From assembly GCA_020854915.1 (NCBI GenBank), contig JAHKLT010000013.1:1-59826 (forward strand): 59,826 nt of DNA. Reading direction: 5' to 3'. The notes below the pieces were generated by a model that saw only the letters and a program-made list of their open reading frames with translations, was not told the origin of the DNA and searched no databases. Position 1 is the first letter of the stretch, and every line of letters starts with the position of its first letter. This document shows, piece by piece, positions 2,905-30,934 of the stretch. A program made the position numbers and the translations under genes. Source of the DNA: Methanobacteriaceae archaeon. Its GTDB lineage: Archaea; Methanobacteriota; Methanobacteria; Methanobacteriales; Methanobacteriaceae.

Positions 2905-5505
2905 ATGATTATAATTAAACCTAAAAAAAAGATCTATGAAGTTTTCCCTATTGGTTCACCTAAAGGTGCTCTAAATTCCAAAAGAAAACCTAAATTTATA
3001 GGTTCTTTAAAATTTAAAAAAGAAGGAAATAAATTATCAATTAATAAGTTTATTGCTAATTATGAAAATGAAGAAAAATTATATCCTCCTTCTCAAGTTT
3101 TAAAGTTTTTTAAAAATCAAGCTATTTTTTTAACTGAAAAAGATGAAGAGCTAGAAGAGTTTTTAAAAAGTAATGATATTACTCCTAGATTTACTAAAAT
3201 TTGCAAGTTCTGTGTAAATGATGGAAATATTACAATTATTAACTCTAAAAATATGTATAAATATCATAATCAATTTATTTGTTATGATTGTGCTTTGAAT
3301 ACTATTAAAAGAGAACTTGATATGCAAAAGTATAATAAAAAAGTTTTTAGAAATTTTAAAAATCTACTTGATACAACTAAAGATTTAGAAAAGGTTATAA
3401 ATGTTATCAATCATAAATTTGATCCTTTAAAAAACTCTAATTTAACATTATTTGATAAAATAGAAATTGATAAAACTAATAAAATCCCTGAAGTTGATAT
3501 GGATAGGTTAAAAATTCCAAATGATTTTAAAAAGATTTTAATAGAAAATGGAAATAAAAAACTACTTCCAATACAAATTTTAGCTATTAATAAAGGATTA
3601 CTTAAAGGAGAAAACATATTAGCAGTTTCTGCAACAGGAAGTGGAAAAACATTAATTGGTGAACTTGCAGGAATTCCTAAAGCATTAAATAGGGAAAAGT
3701 TTATTTTTTTAACTCCTCTTGTTGCTCTTGCAAATCAAAAATATAGGGATTTTAAAAAGAAATACGAAAAATTAGGTTTAAAAGTAGCTATTAAAGTTGG
3801 AAAAAATAGAGTTAAAGCTAAAGGTGAACTTAATTTTAATAATTCAAGTATTAAAGATGCAGATATAATTGTTGGAACTTATGAGGGAATTGATTTTCTG
3901 ATTCGAAGTGGAAATTATAAAGACTTAGAAGAATTAGGTCTTATTTTAATAGATGAGATTCATACATTAGATGATATTGATAGAGGAATTAGATTAAATG
4001 GATTAATTAAAAGAGTTAAAAAATTATTCCCTAAAACTCAAACAATAGCTTTATCAGCTACTGTTAAAAACCCTAATTTTCTAGCTAATATTTTAGATGC
4101 TAATTTAGTTGAGTATTCTAAAAGACCAGTTCCAATTGAAAGACATTTGATTTATACAAGAAACGAATCTGAAAAAAGATTGATTATTCGAAAGCTTATT
4201 GTTAAAGAATTTAATGAAGTGTCATCTAGAGGATTTAAAGGTCAAACAATTATTTTTACAAATTCTCGGCGTAAAACTCATCAATTATCTAATTATTTAT
4301 CTAATAAAGGATTAAATGTTAAGGCATATCATGCAGGTTTGTCTTATTATAAAAAAGAAAGAATTGAAAAAGATTTTGACAAGGGAAAAATAGCTGCAGT
4401 TGTTACTACTGCTGCTTTAGCTGCAGGAGTTGATTTTCCAGCATCACAAGTTATTTTTGATACTCTTTTAATGGGAAATTCATGGATTTCTCCTAATGAA
4501 TTTTCACAAATGACAGGTAGAGCAGGAAGGCCAAGTTATCATGATATTGGAAAGGTATTTTTACTTCCAGAGGTTGCAAATTCTTTTGATAATGAAAGTG
4601 AAGAACTTGTTGCTTTAAATTTATTAGAAAGTGATGTTGAAAAAGTGCATATTGATTATACTTATGAGGATACATTAGAAGAAGTTTTAGCAGATATTTC
4701 TTCTTTTACTGTTAAAAATTTAGATGAATTAAAAAATTTATATAAAGATACTAATTTACCTATAAGTTTAAGTGAGATTATTGAGGAATTAGCTAGTAAA
4801 TCCTTAATTAAAGTTCACTCATCTAAATTTAATGTAACTGTTTATGGGAGAGCTGTTTCTATGTCCTTTCTCATGATTCATGAAGCAGATTTTATAAAAA
4901 ATTCATTGAATAATAAAGATTATCTTAAGAATTTATTTAATAATGGATCTAATAAACTAGAAATTAATATTTTAAACAATTTAAATGATAAAAAGAAAAT
5001 AAATGTAGATAGATTAAAAACTAAATATATTGCAATGGAATTAGAATTAATAGAAAATGCATACTTATCACCACTTATTCATTCGAAATTAGCTAGTTCT
5101 CTTAAAATGAATATTTCATCAAGATTATTTTCAGAATCTACATTAGATATTATCTCATCTGGTGATACTATTTCAAAATTAGATTCTAAGTTTCAAGATG
5201 CATTATTAAATTTACAAATTGACTTTTTAAAGTGTTCTTGTGAGGAAAAACCATTTTGCAAGTGTCTTCAACGTGGAATATCTGAAATTATAATTGAAGA
5301 TAGATTAAAAGGATTAGATCCTATTGATATTTCAGATAAGTTATTTAAAAAATATCAAATTCAGATTTATCCAGGTGATATTTTTACATGGCTTGATGCA
5401 TATCTTAGGAATTTAGATGCAGTAAAAAGAATAGGTAATGCATTTAAAATGAAAAACTTCAAAAAAGAAGCTGAATATTTAATAAAAGCTATTGAAAAAT
5501 CTTAA
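2905..5505 (+). CDS. Ski2-like superfamily 2 helicase with N-terminal zinc knuckle
   Basis: 866 residues. The N-terminal domain contains a Cys4 site (C100, C103, C126, C129). The helicase core follows: Walker A ATGSGKT at 243-249, DEIH at 350-353, LSAT, and motif VI QMTGRAGRP at 535-543. The C-terminal third resembles Ski2-type winged-helix and helical domains and holds a second Cys cluster (CSCEEKPFCKC). Large DEAD/DEAH helicases of this build, with a methanobacterial N-terminal domain (DUF5814 as I recall), are conserved in the order. An RNA or DNA repair/processing role is inference. There is no strong ribosome site at the ATG. The 3' end abuts a decayed mobile-element copy. Confidence 0.85.
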   Translation: MIIIKPKKKIYEVFPIGSPKGALNSKRKPKFIGSLKFKKEGNKLSINKFIANYENEEKLYPPSQVLKFFKNQAIFLTEKDEELEEFLKSNDITPRFTKICKFCVNDGNITIINSKNMYKYHNQFICYDCALNTIKRELDMQKYNKKVFRNFKNLLDTTKDLEKVINVINHKFDPLKNSNLTLFDKIEIDKTNKIPEVDMDRLKIPNDFKKILIENGNKKLLPIQILAINKGLLKGENILAVSATGSGKTLIGELAGIPKALNREKFIFLTPLVALANQKYRDFKKKYEKLGLKVAIKVGKNRVKAKGELNFNNSSIKDADIIVGTYEGIDFLIRSGNYKDLEELGLILIDEIHTLDDIDRGIRLNGLIKRVKKLFPKTQTIALSATVKNPNFLANILDANLVEYSKRPVPIERHLIYTRNESEKRLIIRKLIVKEFNEVSSRGFKGQTIIFTNSRRKTHQLSNYLSNKGLNVKAYHAGLSYYKKERIEKDFDKGKIAAVVTTAALAAGVDFPASQVIFDTLLMGNSWISPNEFSQMTGRAGRPSYHDIGKVFLLPEVANSFDNESEELVALNLLESDVEKVHIDYTYEDTLEEVLADISSFTVKNLDELKNLYKDTNLPISLSEIIEELASKSLIKVHSSKFNVTVYGRAVSMSFLMIHEADFIKNSLNNKDYLKNLFNNGSNKLEINILNNLNDKKKINVDRLKTKYIAMELELIENAYLSPLIHSKLASSLKMNISSRLFSESTLDIISSGDTISKLDSKFQDALLNLQIDFLKCSCEEKPFCKCLQRGISEIIIEDRLKGLDPIDISDKLFKKYQIQIYPGDIFTWLDAYLRNLDAVKRIGNAFKMKNFKKEAEYLIKAIEKS

Positions 5506-26612: not shown

Positions 26613-27007
26613 TTTTTTTAAATTCATCATTCATTCTTATTTTAAATATATTCTATTTTTAATTTTTATTTTAATTATAGACTTTTTTATTGATTGTTTT
26701 TTATTAGAATAAGATAAATTCATTTTTATTTTGGATAAAACAATTAAATTTATTCTTTTTTTTACTTTTTATTCAAACTTTGTTCTTTAATTATATTTAC
26801 ACTATTTTTTATCTTTTTATGCTTAATACTAAAATATTTAAAGTTTATTTTTTAAAAACTATATGTTTTATGTAGTTATTCATTAAATATAATCTTTTTA
26901 ATACACTATTCTATATAAAAAGCTTTATATACACTTTTAGATAATATATAAATATGTACATGGGGAAAAATAATTTTTCATGTTTTTTATTTTGTGGAGG
27001 TTAAAAT
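26613..27007 (+). promoter_or_regulatory. Intergenic region with promoter and ribosome site of the wall enzyme
   Basis: 395 AT-rich bases. AGCTTTATATACAC (26921-26934) is a strong TATA-box candidate, which places the transcript start near 26955 and gives a leader of about 50 bases. GTGGAGG (26994-27000) is a strong ribosome site with no ATG, GTG or TTG in frame behind it. The only in-frame codons at the right distance are ATT at 27008 and 27011. Confidence 0.6.
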
Positions 27008-30000
27008 ATTATTAAGAAAAATATAGCATTATTTGCATTTGTTTTACTTATTTTCTTTTCGTCTTTAAGTGCAACTTTTGCAATTGATAATAATGAATCT
27101 TTAAATTCATTAGATCAAAGTGATTTTGAATCTTCAGATTTAATTTCTACTAATAATGCTAATAATGTTATTAATCAAAATGAAAATTTTGCTAATTCAA
27201 CTAATTCTGTTTCATCAGATATTAATGATGATGTAATATCAAAAAACTTATATGAATCAAATTATGTTTCTGTAAGTAGTGATGTAATTTCTAAGTTAAA
27301 TTATGATTCTTCAGATGATGATGTTGATAGTAATGTAATTGGTGAATCTAATGTTTCTCTTAATAGTGATGTAATTGGTGAATCAAATGCCTCAGATGAT
27401 GATTCTGATAGTGATGTAATTGGTGAATCTAATTATGTTCTTTCAAATGTCAATGTAGTTGCTGAAGCAAATCAGGCTTCTTCAAAAATTGATACAAAGA
27501 TAGATTCTTCTGATGTTGAAATTTTTTATAAAAATGGAACAAGATTTTCTATTTTATTAAAAGATAAAAATGGTGCGATTTTACCAAATCAAAATGTTGT
27601 TTTCACTGTTAATGGTAACAATTATGAAAAATCAACTGATAAATCTGGTTATGCAAGTATTGCTATCAATTTAAATCCAGGTATATATGATATTAGAATA
27701 ACATTTAAAGAGAATGATCTTTATAATGAATCTAGTGTTTTAAATAAGATTACAGTTAAAAAAACTATTGATGCTAAGGATGTAATCAAATATTATTTAA
27801 ATGGTACTCAATTTTATGCTACTTTTTTAGATGGTAATGGTAATCCTTTAAGTAATCGTAATGTTACTTTTAATATTAATGGTGTTTTTTACACTAGAGC
27901 AACTGATTCTAATGGTGTTGCAAACTTAAACATTAATTTAAATCCAAATGAATATATTCTTACGGCTATTCATCCCGATACTGAGTATTTTTATTCAAAT
28001 AATATAAAAGTACTTCCAACTATTTTAAGTGAAGATATTGTTAAAGGCTATTTAGAAGATAAACAATTTTATGCTACTTTTTTAGATGGTAATGGTAATC
28101 CTTTAAGTAATCGTGATGTTACTTTTAATATTAATGGTGTTTTTTACACTAGAGCAACTGATTCTAATGGTGTTGCAAAGTTAAATATTAATTTAAATCC
28201 AAATGAATATATTTTGACTGCTTTAAATCCTGTTGATAATTTGCAAAGAAGCTATAAAATAACTGTTCTTTCAATTCCTAACTTTTCTATAATTAATTCT
28301 AATTTTATTGAAGGTAAAAACAATAGTTTTGAATTAAGTTTAAAAGTTAATGATGTCTCTATAATTAACCAAGAGATTAAATTTACAATTAATGGTGTTT
28401 CATATATTAGAAAAACTAATGAATTAGGAGTAGCTTCCTTATCTATTAATTTAATTCCTGGAACTTATGATATTTATTATAGTTTCCAAGGGAATTCTAA
28501 AGTTAAGGGAATTAATGGTTCTACCCAAATTAATGTTCTTGCTGATATATCTCCAGTTAACACTCAAGTTAATGCTTATTGGTTATTTGGTGGAGACATG
28601 AAAAAAGTTGACCTTGCTCAACTAAGTTCTAATGGTGTAAATACTGTATTCTTAAACTTCTATGCAATTTCTGCACATGGTAAAAGTAGTGTGGAATCAT
28701 GGATAGCTACTGCAGCTACACATAATATAAAAGTCCATATTTGGATGCAAGCTTTTTATGAAAGTGGATGGATTTTACCTGTAAAAAGTGATGGTACTTA
28801 TAACCAAGAAATCTTTGATAAAAAAGTCAAGGAAGCTATTTCTTATGCTAATATTAAAGGTTTATCTGGTATACATATAGATTATTTAAGATTTAATGGA
28901 AATGCTTATAAGTATTCTAATGGTATTGAAGCTATTAATGAATTCGCTAAAATGATTTCTGAAGAAATTAAAAAAGTTAATCCTAATTTAATCTTATCTG
29001 CAGCGGTAATGCCTGAGACAACTTCAAATCCTACTCATTATGGTCAGGATGTTTCTGTTTTAGGTAAATATTTAGATGTAATTGTTCCTATGATTTATAA
29101 AGGTAATTACAATGCAGACACTTCATGGATTTCTAAAACTACTAATTGGTTTGTAGCTAATTCTGCAGGAGCTCAAGTTTGGGTAGGTTTACAAGGATAT
29201 GTTTCTGATTGGGATGATAAATTTTTATCTCATTCTGAATTATCTAATGATGCCCAAACTGCTTATGATGCAGGAGCATATGGTGTTAGTATTTTCAGAT
29301 TTGGTGCAAGTAATATTATTAATTTTAATAATATCAAAATCCCTTCTAATCCAGAAGATGGCGTTGTTGGAGAATCTGTTTCTTCACAGGATATTATTAA
29401 AGCAGCTTCTGAATTAAAGACACATATAGAAAAAAATGGAATATTGCCTGTTTCTATTTCTGTTAATGGAAAAATCATTTCAGTTTCTGAATTTTTATAT
29501 TTAATGGCTAAGGTAATTGCTAATTATGAATCTGGTAATAAAAACTTTGGTATTGTTTTAGTTTCTGCACCTGATGATTCTAAAGGAGACAAAATTCTTA
29601 GTCAACTTAATAAAAAAGATTATTTAACTGTTGCTTCAGAAATTATTAGAATTGTAGATTCAAATAAAAAAGCACCTACTAATGTAACTAGTCCTATTGG
29701 AAATATTCAATACAACACTTTAGTTTATTCATTTTCCAAAATTTTAAACTTCATTGGGTCTTCAAATTCTTTACCTAACTATGTTTATACTACAGATTTA
29801 TTAGATAATTATATGCTTACTGTCACTATGAAACCTAGTGCTTCAAATTTAAATGGTCAATATCAATCTATTTATTACACTACTACTTGGCTTAATCATT
29901 GCCCTAATTGTGGATATTATGGTACTTTATTAATTAATCCTAAAGGTGTTCCTGAAGGAGAATTAACTTGTGCCTGTTGTGATTCTGATTATTGTGGTGT

Positions 30001-30934
30001 TTCTGGATTTGAAAAAATTCATAGTGCTGATCGTAAATCTTTAACTAAAATTAGTTCTGAAGGTACTAATCAAGTTGGAAGTTCTGGTGATTCTTTTGCT
30101 ATCAATGATATTTTAGATATGTCAGTTCGTTTGAAAAATTATATTTCTTCTAATGATAGATTACCAAATTATGTAACTCTTAAAGATAAACAATATTCTA
30201 TGGCAGAAGCATTATATTTAATGACTTCTGCAACTTTGAATATTAATAATGGTAATTTTTCAAATATTAAAGCTATTAATGCTTCTGATGCTCCAAGTCC
30301 TGAAGGAGATCTTATTAATTCTAATCTCAATAAGACAAATTATCTTGATCTTGCAAATAGGATTATGAATTTTATTAAAACAAATGGTTATGCTCCTAAT
30401 TTTGCTTCTAGCTCTATTGGTAAAGTTATATTTTCTGAATTAGTTGATTCTTATTCAAGAATATTATCATATTATAAAGATAATGATAATAATTTACCAG
30501 CTCAGGTAGCTATAAAATATTCTGGAGGATCTAGTAAATCTATATCTGATTTAGCTAAATCTTTAACAAAAGATCTTACATCTGATTTAGAAAAAGCTAC
30601 TGCTTTATTTAATTATGTTAGAGATAAGATAGGTTATAGCTATTATGAAAATACTAGAAAAGGAGCTGAAGGTACTTTACTTTCTGGTTCTGCTAATTGT
30701 TGTGATATGTCTCATTTATTAGTAGCTCTTGCAAGATCTAGTGGATTAACAGTTAATTATGCTCATGGAAAATGTCAGTTTAGCACTTTTAGTGTTGGGC
30801 ATGTATGGGTTGAATTCACAATAGGTGGTAAAACTTATTCTGCTGATCCTTCTAGTGCTAGAAATTCATTTGGTTCTATTAAAAGTTGGAGTCTTATAAC
30901 TTTTTATAATCGTCATGAGACTTTACCATTCTAA
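27008..30934 (+). CDS. Secreted pseudomurein-active multidomain protein, apparent ATT start
   Basis: 1308 residues if begun at ATT 27008. Order of parts: signal peptide (about 1-26, ending SATFA); a Ser/Asp/Asn-rich spacer with VIGESN repeats; four Ig-like repeats (about 175-510; YATFLDGNGNPLSNR); a TIM-barrel glycosidase-like domain (about 517-767; HIWMQAFYE, GIHIDYLRF, VPMIYKG). Then come pseudomurein-binding repeats near 790, 866, 1029 and 1110, with a Cys-rich knuckle (CPNCGYY to CACCDSDYC) near 964-997. A transglutaminase-fold domain (1175-1308) ends the protein, with Cys1231, His1265 and Asp1280. That domain resembles PeiW/PeiP endoisopeptidases, which cut pseudomurein peptides. A wall-remodelling or autolysin role is inferred. 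There are 402 open codons before the first in-frame ATG/GTG/TTG. Confidence 0.88.
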   Translation: MIKKNIALFAFVLLIFFSSLSATFAIDNNESLNSLDQSDFESSDLISTNNANNVINQNENFANSTNSVSSDINDDVISKNLYESNYVSVSSDVISKLNYDSSDDDVDSNVIGESNVSLNSDVIGESNASDDDSDSDVIGESNYVLSNVNVVAEANQASSKIDTKIDSSDVEIFYKNGTRFSILLKDKNGAILPNQNVVFTVNGNNYEKSTDKSGYASIAINLNPGIYDIRITFKENDLYNESSVLNKITVKKTIDAKDVIKYYLNGTQFYATFLDGNGNPLSNRNVTFNINGVFYTRATDSNGVANLNINLNPNEYILTAIHPDTEYFYSNNIKVLPTILSEDIVKGYLEDKQFYATFLDGNGNPLSNRDVTFNINGVFYTRATDSNGVAKLNINLNPNEYILTALNPVDNLQRSYKITVLSIPNFSIINSNFIEGKNNSFELSLKVNDVSIINQEIKFTINGVSYIRKTNELGVASLSINLIPGTYDIYYSFQGNSKVKGINGSTQINVLADISPVNTQVNAYWLFGGDMKKVDLAQLSSNGVNTVFLNFYAISAHGKSSVESWIATAATHNIKVHIWMQAFYESGWILPVKSDGTYNQEIFDKKVKEAISYANIKGLSGIHIDYLRFNGNAYKYSNGIEAINEFAKMISEEIKKVNPNLILSAAVMPETTSNPTHYGQDVSVLGKYLDVIVPMIYKGNYNADTSWISKTTNWFVANSAGAQVWVGLQGYVSDWDDKFLSHSELSNDAQTAYDAGAYGVSIFRFGASNIINFNNIKIPSNPEDGVVGESVSSQDIIKAASELKTHIEKNGILPVSISVNGKIISVSEFLYLMAKVIANYESGNKNFGIVLVSAPDDSKGDKILSQLNKKDYLTVASEIIRIVDSNKKAPTNVTSPIGNIQYNTLVYSFSKILNFIGSSNSLPNYVYTTDLLDNYMLTVTMKPSASNLNGQYQSIYYTTTWLNHCPNCGYYGTLLINPKGVPEGELTCACCDSDYCGVSGFEKIHSADRKSLTKISSEGTNQVGSSGDSFAINDILDMSVRLKNYISSNDRLPNYVTLKDKQYSMAEALYLMTSATLNINNGNFSNIKAINASDAPSPEGDLINSNLNKTNYLDLANRIMNFIKTNGYAPNFASSSIGKVIFSELVDSYSRILSYYKDNDNNLPAQVAIKYSGGSSKSISDLAKSLTKDLTSDLEKATALFNYVRDKIGYSYYENTRKGAEGTLLSGSANCCDMSHLLVALARSSGLTVNYAHGKCQFSTFSVGHVWVEFTIGGKTYSADPSSARNSFGSIKSWSLITFYNRHETLPF
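27809..28214 (+). repeat. Direct 151-bp repeat pair encoding Ig-like modules
   Basis: 27809-27959 and 28064-28214 are almost identical, differing by a few bases (for example SNRNVT versus SNRDVT). Each encodes one Ig-like module. The identity is far higher than for the flanking modules, so this is a recent internal duplication and could recombine to change module number. Confidence 0.85.

Follow-up and report, generated by a model that had tools for sequence, protein, structure and literature searches.

A pseudomurein-binding protein of Methanobacteriaceae that joins a glycosidase-like barrel to a transglutaminase-fold domain, a candidate for wall remodeling

The window analyzed here is a 59,826-nucleotide stretch of contig JAHKLT010000013.1 from a Methanobacteriaceae archaeon (assembly GCA_020854915.1). 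It carries an open frame of 1308 codons on the forward strand, from 27008 to 30934, and residues are numbered throughout from the start of this frame at 27008. The encoded protein begins with a predicted signal segment and continues with an acidic, Ser-rich linker, four immunoglobulin (Ig)-like repeats, a (beta/alpha)8 barrel, a first pseudomurein-binding module, a Cys knuckle, a second binding module, and a C-terminal domain of transglutaminase (TG) fold (Table 1). A preliminary description had placed the protein at 28560 to 30934; the end of that interval is right and its residue numbers fit the 1308-codon frame, but its start is only the start of the barrel. No NCBIfam family matches the whole protein, and single-sequence searches of the PDB gave no match for the whole protein or for the part made up of pseudomurein-binding repeats (PMBRs) and TG domain. 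Where those searches gave none, profile searches recovered PeiW and PeiP for the TG domain and relatives from glycoside hydrolase family 18 (GH18) for the barrel.

The barrel is likely to be a hydrolase of wall glycan. Its residues 598-710 match PF13200 (DUF4015, “putative glycosyl hydrolase”) with 33.9 bits against a gathering cut-off of 27, and an AlphaFold2 model, predicted from a profile of 32 related sequences, shows strands and helices in alternation, with all eight strands in barrel order. The closest solved fold is the glycosidase domain of Cwp19 (5oq2; Z 23.7, root-mean-square deviation 3.2, 249 residues aligned, 16% identity), followed by that of PgaB/BpsB (Z 21.6-22.5), and Foldseek concurs. 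Cwp19 is a GHL10 protein of Clostridioides difficile, a proven lytic transglycosylase that cleaves peptidoglycan (PMC6016235). Like the window protein, it is a surface wall enzyme with wall-binding repeats; it differs in its low identity, its murein substrate, its anhydro-product chemistry, and its Pfam family, PF02638, which has no match in the window protein at E<=1 despite the nearness of the fold. Profiles of the barrel also match 4s1a, GH18 enzymes, and the spore cortex-lytic SleL. The likeness to GH18 is a remote profile similarity only, and membership among the GH18 chitinases was rejected, as the Glu of the DxDxE motif is missing: the segment GIHIDYL has Asp625 but Leu627 in place of the Glu.

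Across 32 barrels from archaea, viruses, and Bacteroidales, the invariant residues include His577, Trp579, Asp625, Tyr626, Arg628, Glu670, Gln680, Asp690, Tyr697, and Tyr731, and many of the invariant residues are located at the C-terminal ends of strands. Among them are the acidic residues whose absence, according to the preliminary description, would undo its glycosidase-like TIM barrel, a claim upheld by the eight-strand model, the Pfam score, and the Cwp19 and PgaB folds. Asp625 and Glu670 would be the natural catalytic candidates. In the profile alignment, Asp625 is paired with the final Asp of DxDxE, the GH18 motif. It is also the likely counterpart of Asp196 in Cwp19, judging from an Asp-Tyr pair that the two proteins probably have in common at the end of strand 4 (Asp196-Tyr197 in Cwp19; PMC5765458). 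A different arrangement is seen in an Oscillospiraceae protein of 1979 residues (L101:4212-10148), which apparently carries three tandem, distantly related DUF4015-type barrels.

The C-terminal domain is, on balance, probably lytic. The core of a transglutaminase (PF01841, Transglut_core) is found at residues 1181-1276 with 60.7 bits against a cut-off of 23, and the hidden Markov model search suggested in the preliminary description thus gives both PF01841 and PF13200 above their cut-offs. In the predicted model (pLDDT 85.7), Cys1231 lies at the start of a helix, His1265 on a strand, and Asp1280 just past the next strand. This is their placement in transglutaminase folds; the Cys-His-Asp domain described earlier is confirmed, and no geometry that would contradict it was seen. 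Fold searches with the model give Z scores of 13.6 for TglA, 13.2 for 3isr, 12.5 for PeiP, and 12.3 for PeiW. The last two, the pseudomurein endoisopeptidases (MEROPS C71, PF12386; 8jx4, 8z4f), also share with the window protein the NCxD motif around the Cys, the GH motif of the His, and several PMBRs before the catalytic domain. They differ in that the window protein is only about 16% identical to them, is chromosomal and secreted, and has in addition the barrel, the Ig-like repeats, and the Cys knuckle. Since PF12386 has no match in the window protein at E<=1, membership in peptidase family C71 was rejected by Pfam, and the TG domain is kept as one that may work alike; the relatives L094 and Drs3 score just under the PF12386 cut-off. 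By sequence, the nearest annotated phage record is a PMBR protein of Methanobacterium virus Drs3 (AXN53416.1), which has the same layout of PMBR and transglutaminase and 34% identity over 277 residues. It differs in being viral, 300 residues long, and without a barrel. In the TG tree, the Drs3 and Bacteroidales copies form one group (98/90) amid the methanogen TGs, and PeiW and PeiP stand on a long separate branch, with some deeper branches weakly supported. The likeness to PeiW and PeiP given in the preliminary description holds for the fold but not for the family, Drs3 being nearer.

The binding repeats would keep both domains at the wall. Pfam finds four PMBR stretches in the protein (E 8e-27), the number in the preliminary description, but by eye there are three repeats in each of two modules, with only some of the extra ones scoring in a small repeat model. 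The two modules match one another (E 1e-17 to 1e-18). The knuckle between them has Cys at 965, 968, 988, 990, 991, and 996, so what was described as a Cys4 knuckle holds for the four that form CxxC...CxxC but not for the total of six. On contig 43 of the same genome, a virus tail- or baseplate-like protein of 819 residues (L064:5533-7989, minus strand) has the same Cys knuckle, followed by a remote transglutaminase-like domain. From the viral appearance of this protein and its weak TG match, it looks like a link between the knuckle and viral wall-acting proteins.

Both domains are widespread in the phylum. The barrel occurs in 133 of 151 Methanobacteriota genomes (86 of the 91 good ones) and the TG domain in 145 of 151 (89 of the 91), each in 20 of 20 genera, with 1 to 17 TG copies per genome. 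At least 40 species, from several genera, encode the two in a single frame, as counted by matching the barrel and TG lists by contig and frame length and by inspecting loci, and the earlier view of the fusion as unusual has to be dropped. Elsewhere the barrel occurs by itself, closing a series of Ig repeats, or accompanied by PMBRs and nothing else. A second barrel of the same genome (contig 33, L041:3755-6085, minus strand) is 60% identical and comes with Ig repeats and PMBRs; this protein has neither transglutaminase nor Cys knuckle. The fusion gene of the window lies between a thermosome gene and DtxR-endA-TrpRS; eight further loci (L048, L050, L051, L056, L060, L065, L067, and L070) place it between the same neighbors, and in L059 the DtxR side of this gene order is seen. 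Because its position is syntenic across relatives, the fusion gene is an inherited core gene. Those of its neighbors that were tested in the window are housekeeping genes, and with the conserved synteny they led to the rejection of a prophage lysin, a prophage relic, or an artefact. The gene is chromosomal and the protein predicted to be secreted, from its hydrophobic N-terminal segment, just as the preliminary description had it. Beyond the phylum, barrels were scanned for by short peptide patterns, with Methanopyrus, the other pseudomurein lineage, outside the scan; within the reach of these patterns, the close barrel clade is confined to Methanobacteriota and Bacteroidales. One contig filed as Lentisphaerae (L074) has a barrel 50% identical to that of the window, which branches inside the methanogen clade; the contig is probably misbinned.

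Methanogen viruses use the barrel as well, with eight barrel loci found on scanning IMG/VR. The virus contig L150 has terminase, portal, and head-protease genes, and between the latter two sits the gene for a 362-residue protein of PMBRs and barrel (3624-4709). A protein of 333 residues with the same layout is encoded at 1784-2782 of contig L151, which has a portal gene. Consisting of PMBRs and barrel only, these two proteins are minimal objects on which barrel activity could be tested. The proteins of L144, L145, and L148 are 589-605 residues long, lack a signal, and begin with the barrel, which is followed by PMBR modules and by C39-type motifs in the C-terminal domain. In Pfam, L144, L145, and L149 match C39 weakly and below cut-off (E 0.002-0.04), and the C terminus of L148 does not match it. 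In L144 and L148, the barrel gene lies between tail-region genes and the integrase, which is the place of peiP in psiM2. In L147, an Ig-barrel-Ig arrangement precedes a C terminus that matches C71 weakly (E 0.015). These five proteins (L144, L145, L147, L148, and L149) are candidate bifunctional lysins, pairing the barrel with a C39-like or C71-like cysteine peptidase, mostly with PMBRs. A precedent is PeiR of the M. ruminantium provirus phi-mru, a protein of PMBR and C39 peptidase that lyses methanogens (PMC6189367); L144, L145, and L149 put a barrel before such a layout. PeiR differs from the window protein in having no barrel and a C39 domain instead of the transglutaminase fold. The barrel tree separates L150/L151, L149, and L144-L148, and viruses therefore seem to have acquired the barrel more than once.

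A third setting is found in bacteria of the rumen and gut. In six metagenome-assembled genomes of Bacteroidales, the barrel has between two and four matches per genome, with identities to that of the window of 33-42% for the best ones, and in the tree these copies are nested within the methanogen and virus clade (100/97). The barrels are lipoproteins, adjoined by TG lipoproteins with weak PMBR-like repeats, in a SusCD/GH20 locus. In L158 (G154:C52:8000-27999) and L159, the genes run in the order DeoR regulator, SusC, SusD, two GH20 hexosaminidases, MurQ-family etherase, barrel, PMBR-like repeat protein, barrel, C1-type peptidase, PMBR-like and TG protein, NagK-like kinase, NagP-like transporter, AAT-type amidase, glutamate-type symporter, M20 peptidase, and GHL10 protein. 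Also grouped under this Sus-type locus are L160, L161, and L162, and further L087-L090, L092, and L093. The locus is catabolic and cannot serve the building of pseudomurein; its barrel and TG are therefore most simply degradative. As to the substrate, the MurQ-like gene favors murein or a changed role, and the ancestry of barrel and TG favors pseudomurein. The locus is a candidate for the utilization of pseudomurein (or murein), and some of its parts would derive from methanogens or from methanogen viruses. Nothing was found in the open-access literature that links Bacteroidales loci to pseudomurein.

Breakdown of the wall by a barrel and a cysteine enzyme is favored because three independent settings agree: a core chromosomal gene, virus lysins, and a bacterial catabolic locus. 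By its sequence, the window protein would be a housekeeping, autolysin-like enzyme by which Methanobacteriales remodel pseudomurein, cutting both glycan and peptide. We hold the chances of this combined statement, in which glycan hydrolysis by the barrel and lysis by the TG domain are counted as linked, to be somewhat better than even. That one protein cuts both was suggested in the preliminary description and is still the best reading, but the evidence is comparative and the making of cross-links has been proposed in print. The protein would be exported, span the wall by its Ig-like repeats, and be held on pseudomurein by its two binding modules. The barrel would then cleave the glycan of N-acetylglucosamine or N-acetylgalactosamine and N-acetyltalosaminuronic acid (TalNAcA), with Asp625 stabilizing an N-acetyl-assisted intermediate and Glu670, or another residue at a strand end, serving as the acid. 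The Cys1231-His1265-Asp1280 domain would form a thioacyl enzyme in opening a cross-link, either peptide or isopeptide. For a chromosomal protein, controlled remodeling in growth or cell separation is the likeliest role. The anatomy, folds, invariant residues, distribution, synteny, and use of both modules by viruses and Bacteroidales are observed, and from these comparisons we infer the bonds cut, hydrolysis over transfer, and the part played in wall growth or cell separation. A broader proposal can be made only tentatively: the barrel may found the first family of pseudomurein glycan hydrolases. It would serve all pseudomurein methanogens as a core enzyme of wall growth, would have been taken up repeatedly by their viruses as a lysin module, and would have been captured with TG by rumen and gut Bacteroidales into a Sus-type locus with which these bacteria feed on archaeal walls.

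Several points weigh against a wall-cutting enzyme of this kind. We know of no barrel of the same clade, and of no member of this TG group, with a known activity. The catalytic acid of GH18 is absent, its position being held by Leu627. The C6 of TalNAcA is a carboxylate, so a 1,6-anhydro product of the Cwp19 type cannot form, and its linkage to C3 rules out a simple uronic beta-elimination too. The mechanism must differ from that of Cwp19, as the anhydro reaction is chemically impossible on TalNAcA, and what therefore remains for the barrel is hydrolysis, possibly N-acetyl-assisted. Barrel and TG are also not always retained together: genus g13 keeps up to 9 barrels and has TG in one of six genomes, and genus g8 has TG in every genome but barrels in roughly half of them. 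Barrel and TG activity can thus come apart, possibly in step with wall chemistry. The etherase of the Bacteroidales locus points to murein as well; it scores below the TIGR00274 equivalog cut-off, a changed role being the alternative. The catalytic dyad of Cwp19 itself is undecided (PMC5765458), and no test of the lytic function of the Drs3 protein was found in the open-access literature. TGs can, moreover, form bonds, and a cross-linking role has been proposed (Leahy 2010, PMC2812497; Lupo 2025, PMC11915815).

That role is the strongest rival, in our view a rather unlikely one; the fold by itself agrees with bond making as well as bond breaking. The TG domain would be a synthetic cross-linker, joining the Glu of one stem peptide to the Lys of another by transpeptidation, and the barrel would trim or bind glycan for the joining of new strands. 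The two papers propose this for the exported transglutaminases of pseudomurein archaea, in which no cross-linker like the penicillin-binding proteins is known (PMC2812497), and a near-universal, multicopy domain would suit it. The same TG group, however, includes the Drs3 protein and the Bacteroidales lipoproteins, viruses couple the barrel with lytic-type peptidases, and genus g13 keeps its barrels nearly without this TG. It is improbable that the protein is mainly an adhesin that anchors the cell, be it to partners or its own wall, with the barrel as a non-catalytic, lectin-like carbohydrate binder. Chitinase-like lectins are indeed among the structural neighbors of the barrel, and one paper (PMC11532034) describes for Methanobrevibacter smithii and Methanosphaera stadtmanae a group III (TG-type) of adhesin-like proteins, marked by a membrane helix at the N terminus, Ig-like (ABD) repeats, PMBR, and a C-terminal TG, all of which the window protein has. 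Against a mere binder stand the strand-end residues Asp625, Glu670, Arg628, Tyr697, and Tyr731, which vary hardly or not at all among archaea, bacteria, and viruses, and the viruses L150 and L151, which carry the barrel with binding repeats only. Even less probable is an enzyme aimed outward, at bacterial peptidoglycan or environmental glycans, for antagonism or scavenging. Some archaea do have peptidoglycan hydrolases with which they kill bacteria (PMC12352652), Cwp19 as the nearest fold cleaves bacterial murein, and the Bacteroidales locus includes its MurQ-like gene, but the window protein bears pseudomurein-binding repeats, methanogen viruses use the barrel, and it is present in all 20 genera of a phylum that makes pseudomurein (PMC13135261).

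With regard to earlier work, the architecture is partly known already from the group III adhesin-like proteins. In its accessible part, the same paper lists one M. smithii adhesin-like protein with a “putative glycosyl hydrolase domain”; it frames group III as adhesion and does not take up the barrel fold, its residues, its distribution, or an enzymatic reading (PMC11532034). The known enzymes that cut pseudomurein, PeiW, PeiP, and PeiR, cleave peptide bonds, and a characterized glycan-cutting enzyme was not found. Nor was any proposal or test of a pseudomurein glycan hydrolase found in the open-access literature, which agrees with the preliminary description, and the assignment of the barrel as one appears to be unproposed there so far. 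The barrel offers a concrete, small (260 residues), and expressible candidate with two residues to mutate. If glycan hydrolysis by the barrel is true, it would make it possible to ask how methanogens expand and divide their walls and would provide a tool to lyse them for DNA extraction, genetics, and methane control. It would also mean that gut bacteria may eat archaeal walls.

Table 1. Features of the fusion gene in the window, with residues numbered in the 1308-codon frame
Feature	Position	Strand	Basis
Whole gene	27008..30934	+	Open frame; 1308 codons, 1307 residues if ATT start at 27011
N-terminal hydrophobic signal segment, residues 1-25	27008..27082	+	Sequence; similar hydrophobic N-termini in relatives
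Ser/Asp/Asn-rich low-complexity linker, residues 26-165	27083..27502	+	Sequence
Four Ig-like repeats, residues 166-515	27503..28552	+	Pfam Big_3_5, Big_1, MG4
(beta/alpha)8 barrel, residues 516-775, DUF4015/GHL10-like	28553..29332	+	PF13200 E 2.4e-8; model with mean pLDDT 96.3; Cwp19 and PgaB folds
Asp625, end of strand 4	28880..28882	+	Invariant: 52/52 and 32/32 aligned sequences
Glu670, end of strand 5, MPE motif	29015..29017	+	Conserved 51/52 and 32/32; second candidate catalytic acid
Pseudomurein-binding module 1, residues 790-945	29375..29842	+	PMBR at 867-894 and 898-928; homologous to module 2
Cys knuckle, residues 960-1000	29885..30007	+	Six Cys, CxxC...CxxC core; present in ten other distinct relatives
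Pseudomurein-binding module 2, residues 1025-1165	30080..30502	+	PMBR at 1029-1057 and 1106-1131; weak further repeat about 1138-1159
Transglutaminase-fold domain, residues 1166-1308	30503..30931	+	PF01841 E 2e-16; model; TglA, 3isr, PeiP, PeiW folds
Putative catalytic Cys1231 (NCCD)	30698..30700	+	Invariant in the A3 set, including Bacteroidales; NCxD also in Drs3, PeiW, PeiP
Putative catalytic His1265 (GHV)	30800..30802	+	Invariant in the A3 set
Putative catalytic Asp1280 (ADPS)	30845..30847	+	Invariant in the A3 set

The start of the gene is unusual in its codon. Inspection of the sequence finds no ATG, GTG, or TTG in the frame before 28214, and standard calling of open reading frames starts the gene at the TTG there, which is inside the Ig-like repeats. 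A gene truncated in this way was rejected, as the upstream frame is open and carries the signal segment. The aligned starts of relatives read GGAGGTAA-AAT-ATT-TTG-AAC/AAG and that of the window GGAGGTTAA-AAT-ATT-ATT-AAG, with a GGAGGT ribosome-binding site at 26996-27001, upstream of ATT 27011. Because the window has ATT where the relatives have TTG, translation very probably starts at ATT 27011. Gene callers limited to ATG, GTG, and TTG miss or shorten such genes. Several secreted proteins in L094 and L095 begin similarly (GGAGGCGGT...ATT-A(A/C)G-CGA), and L061 is noted alongside them for ATT starts.

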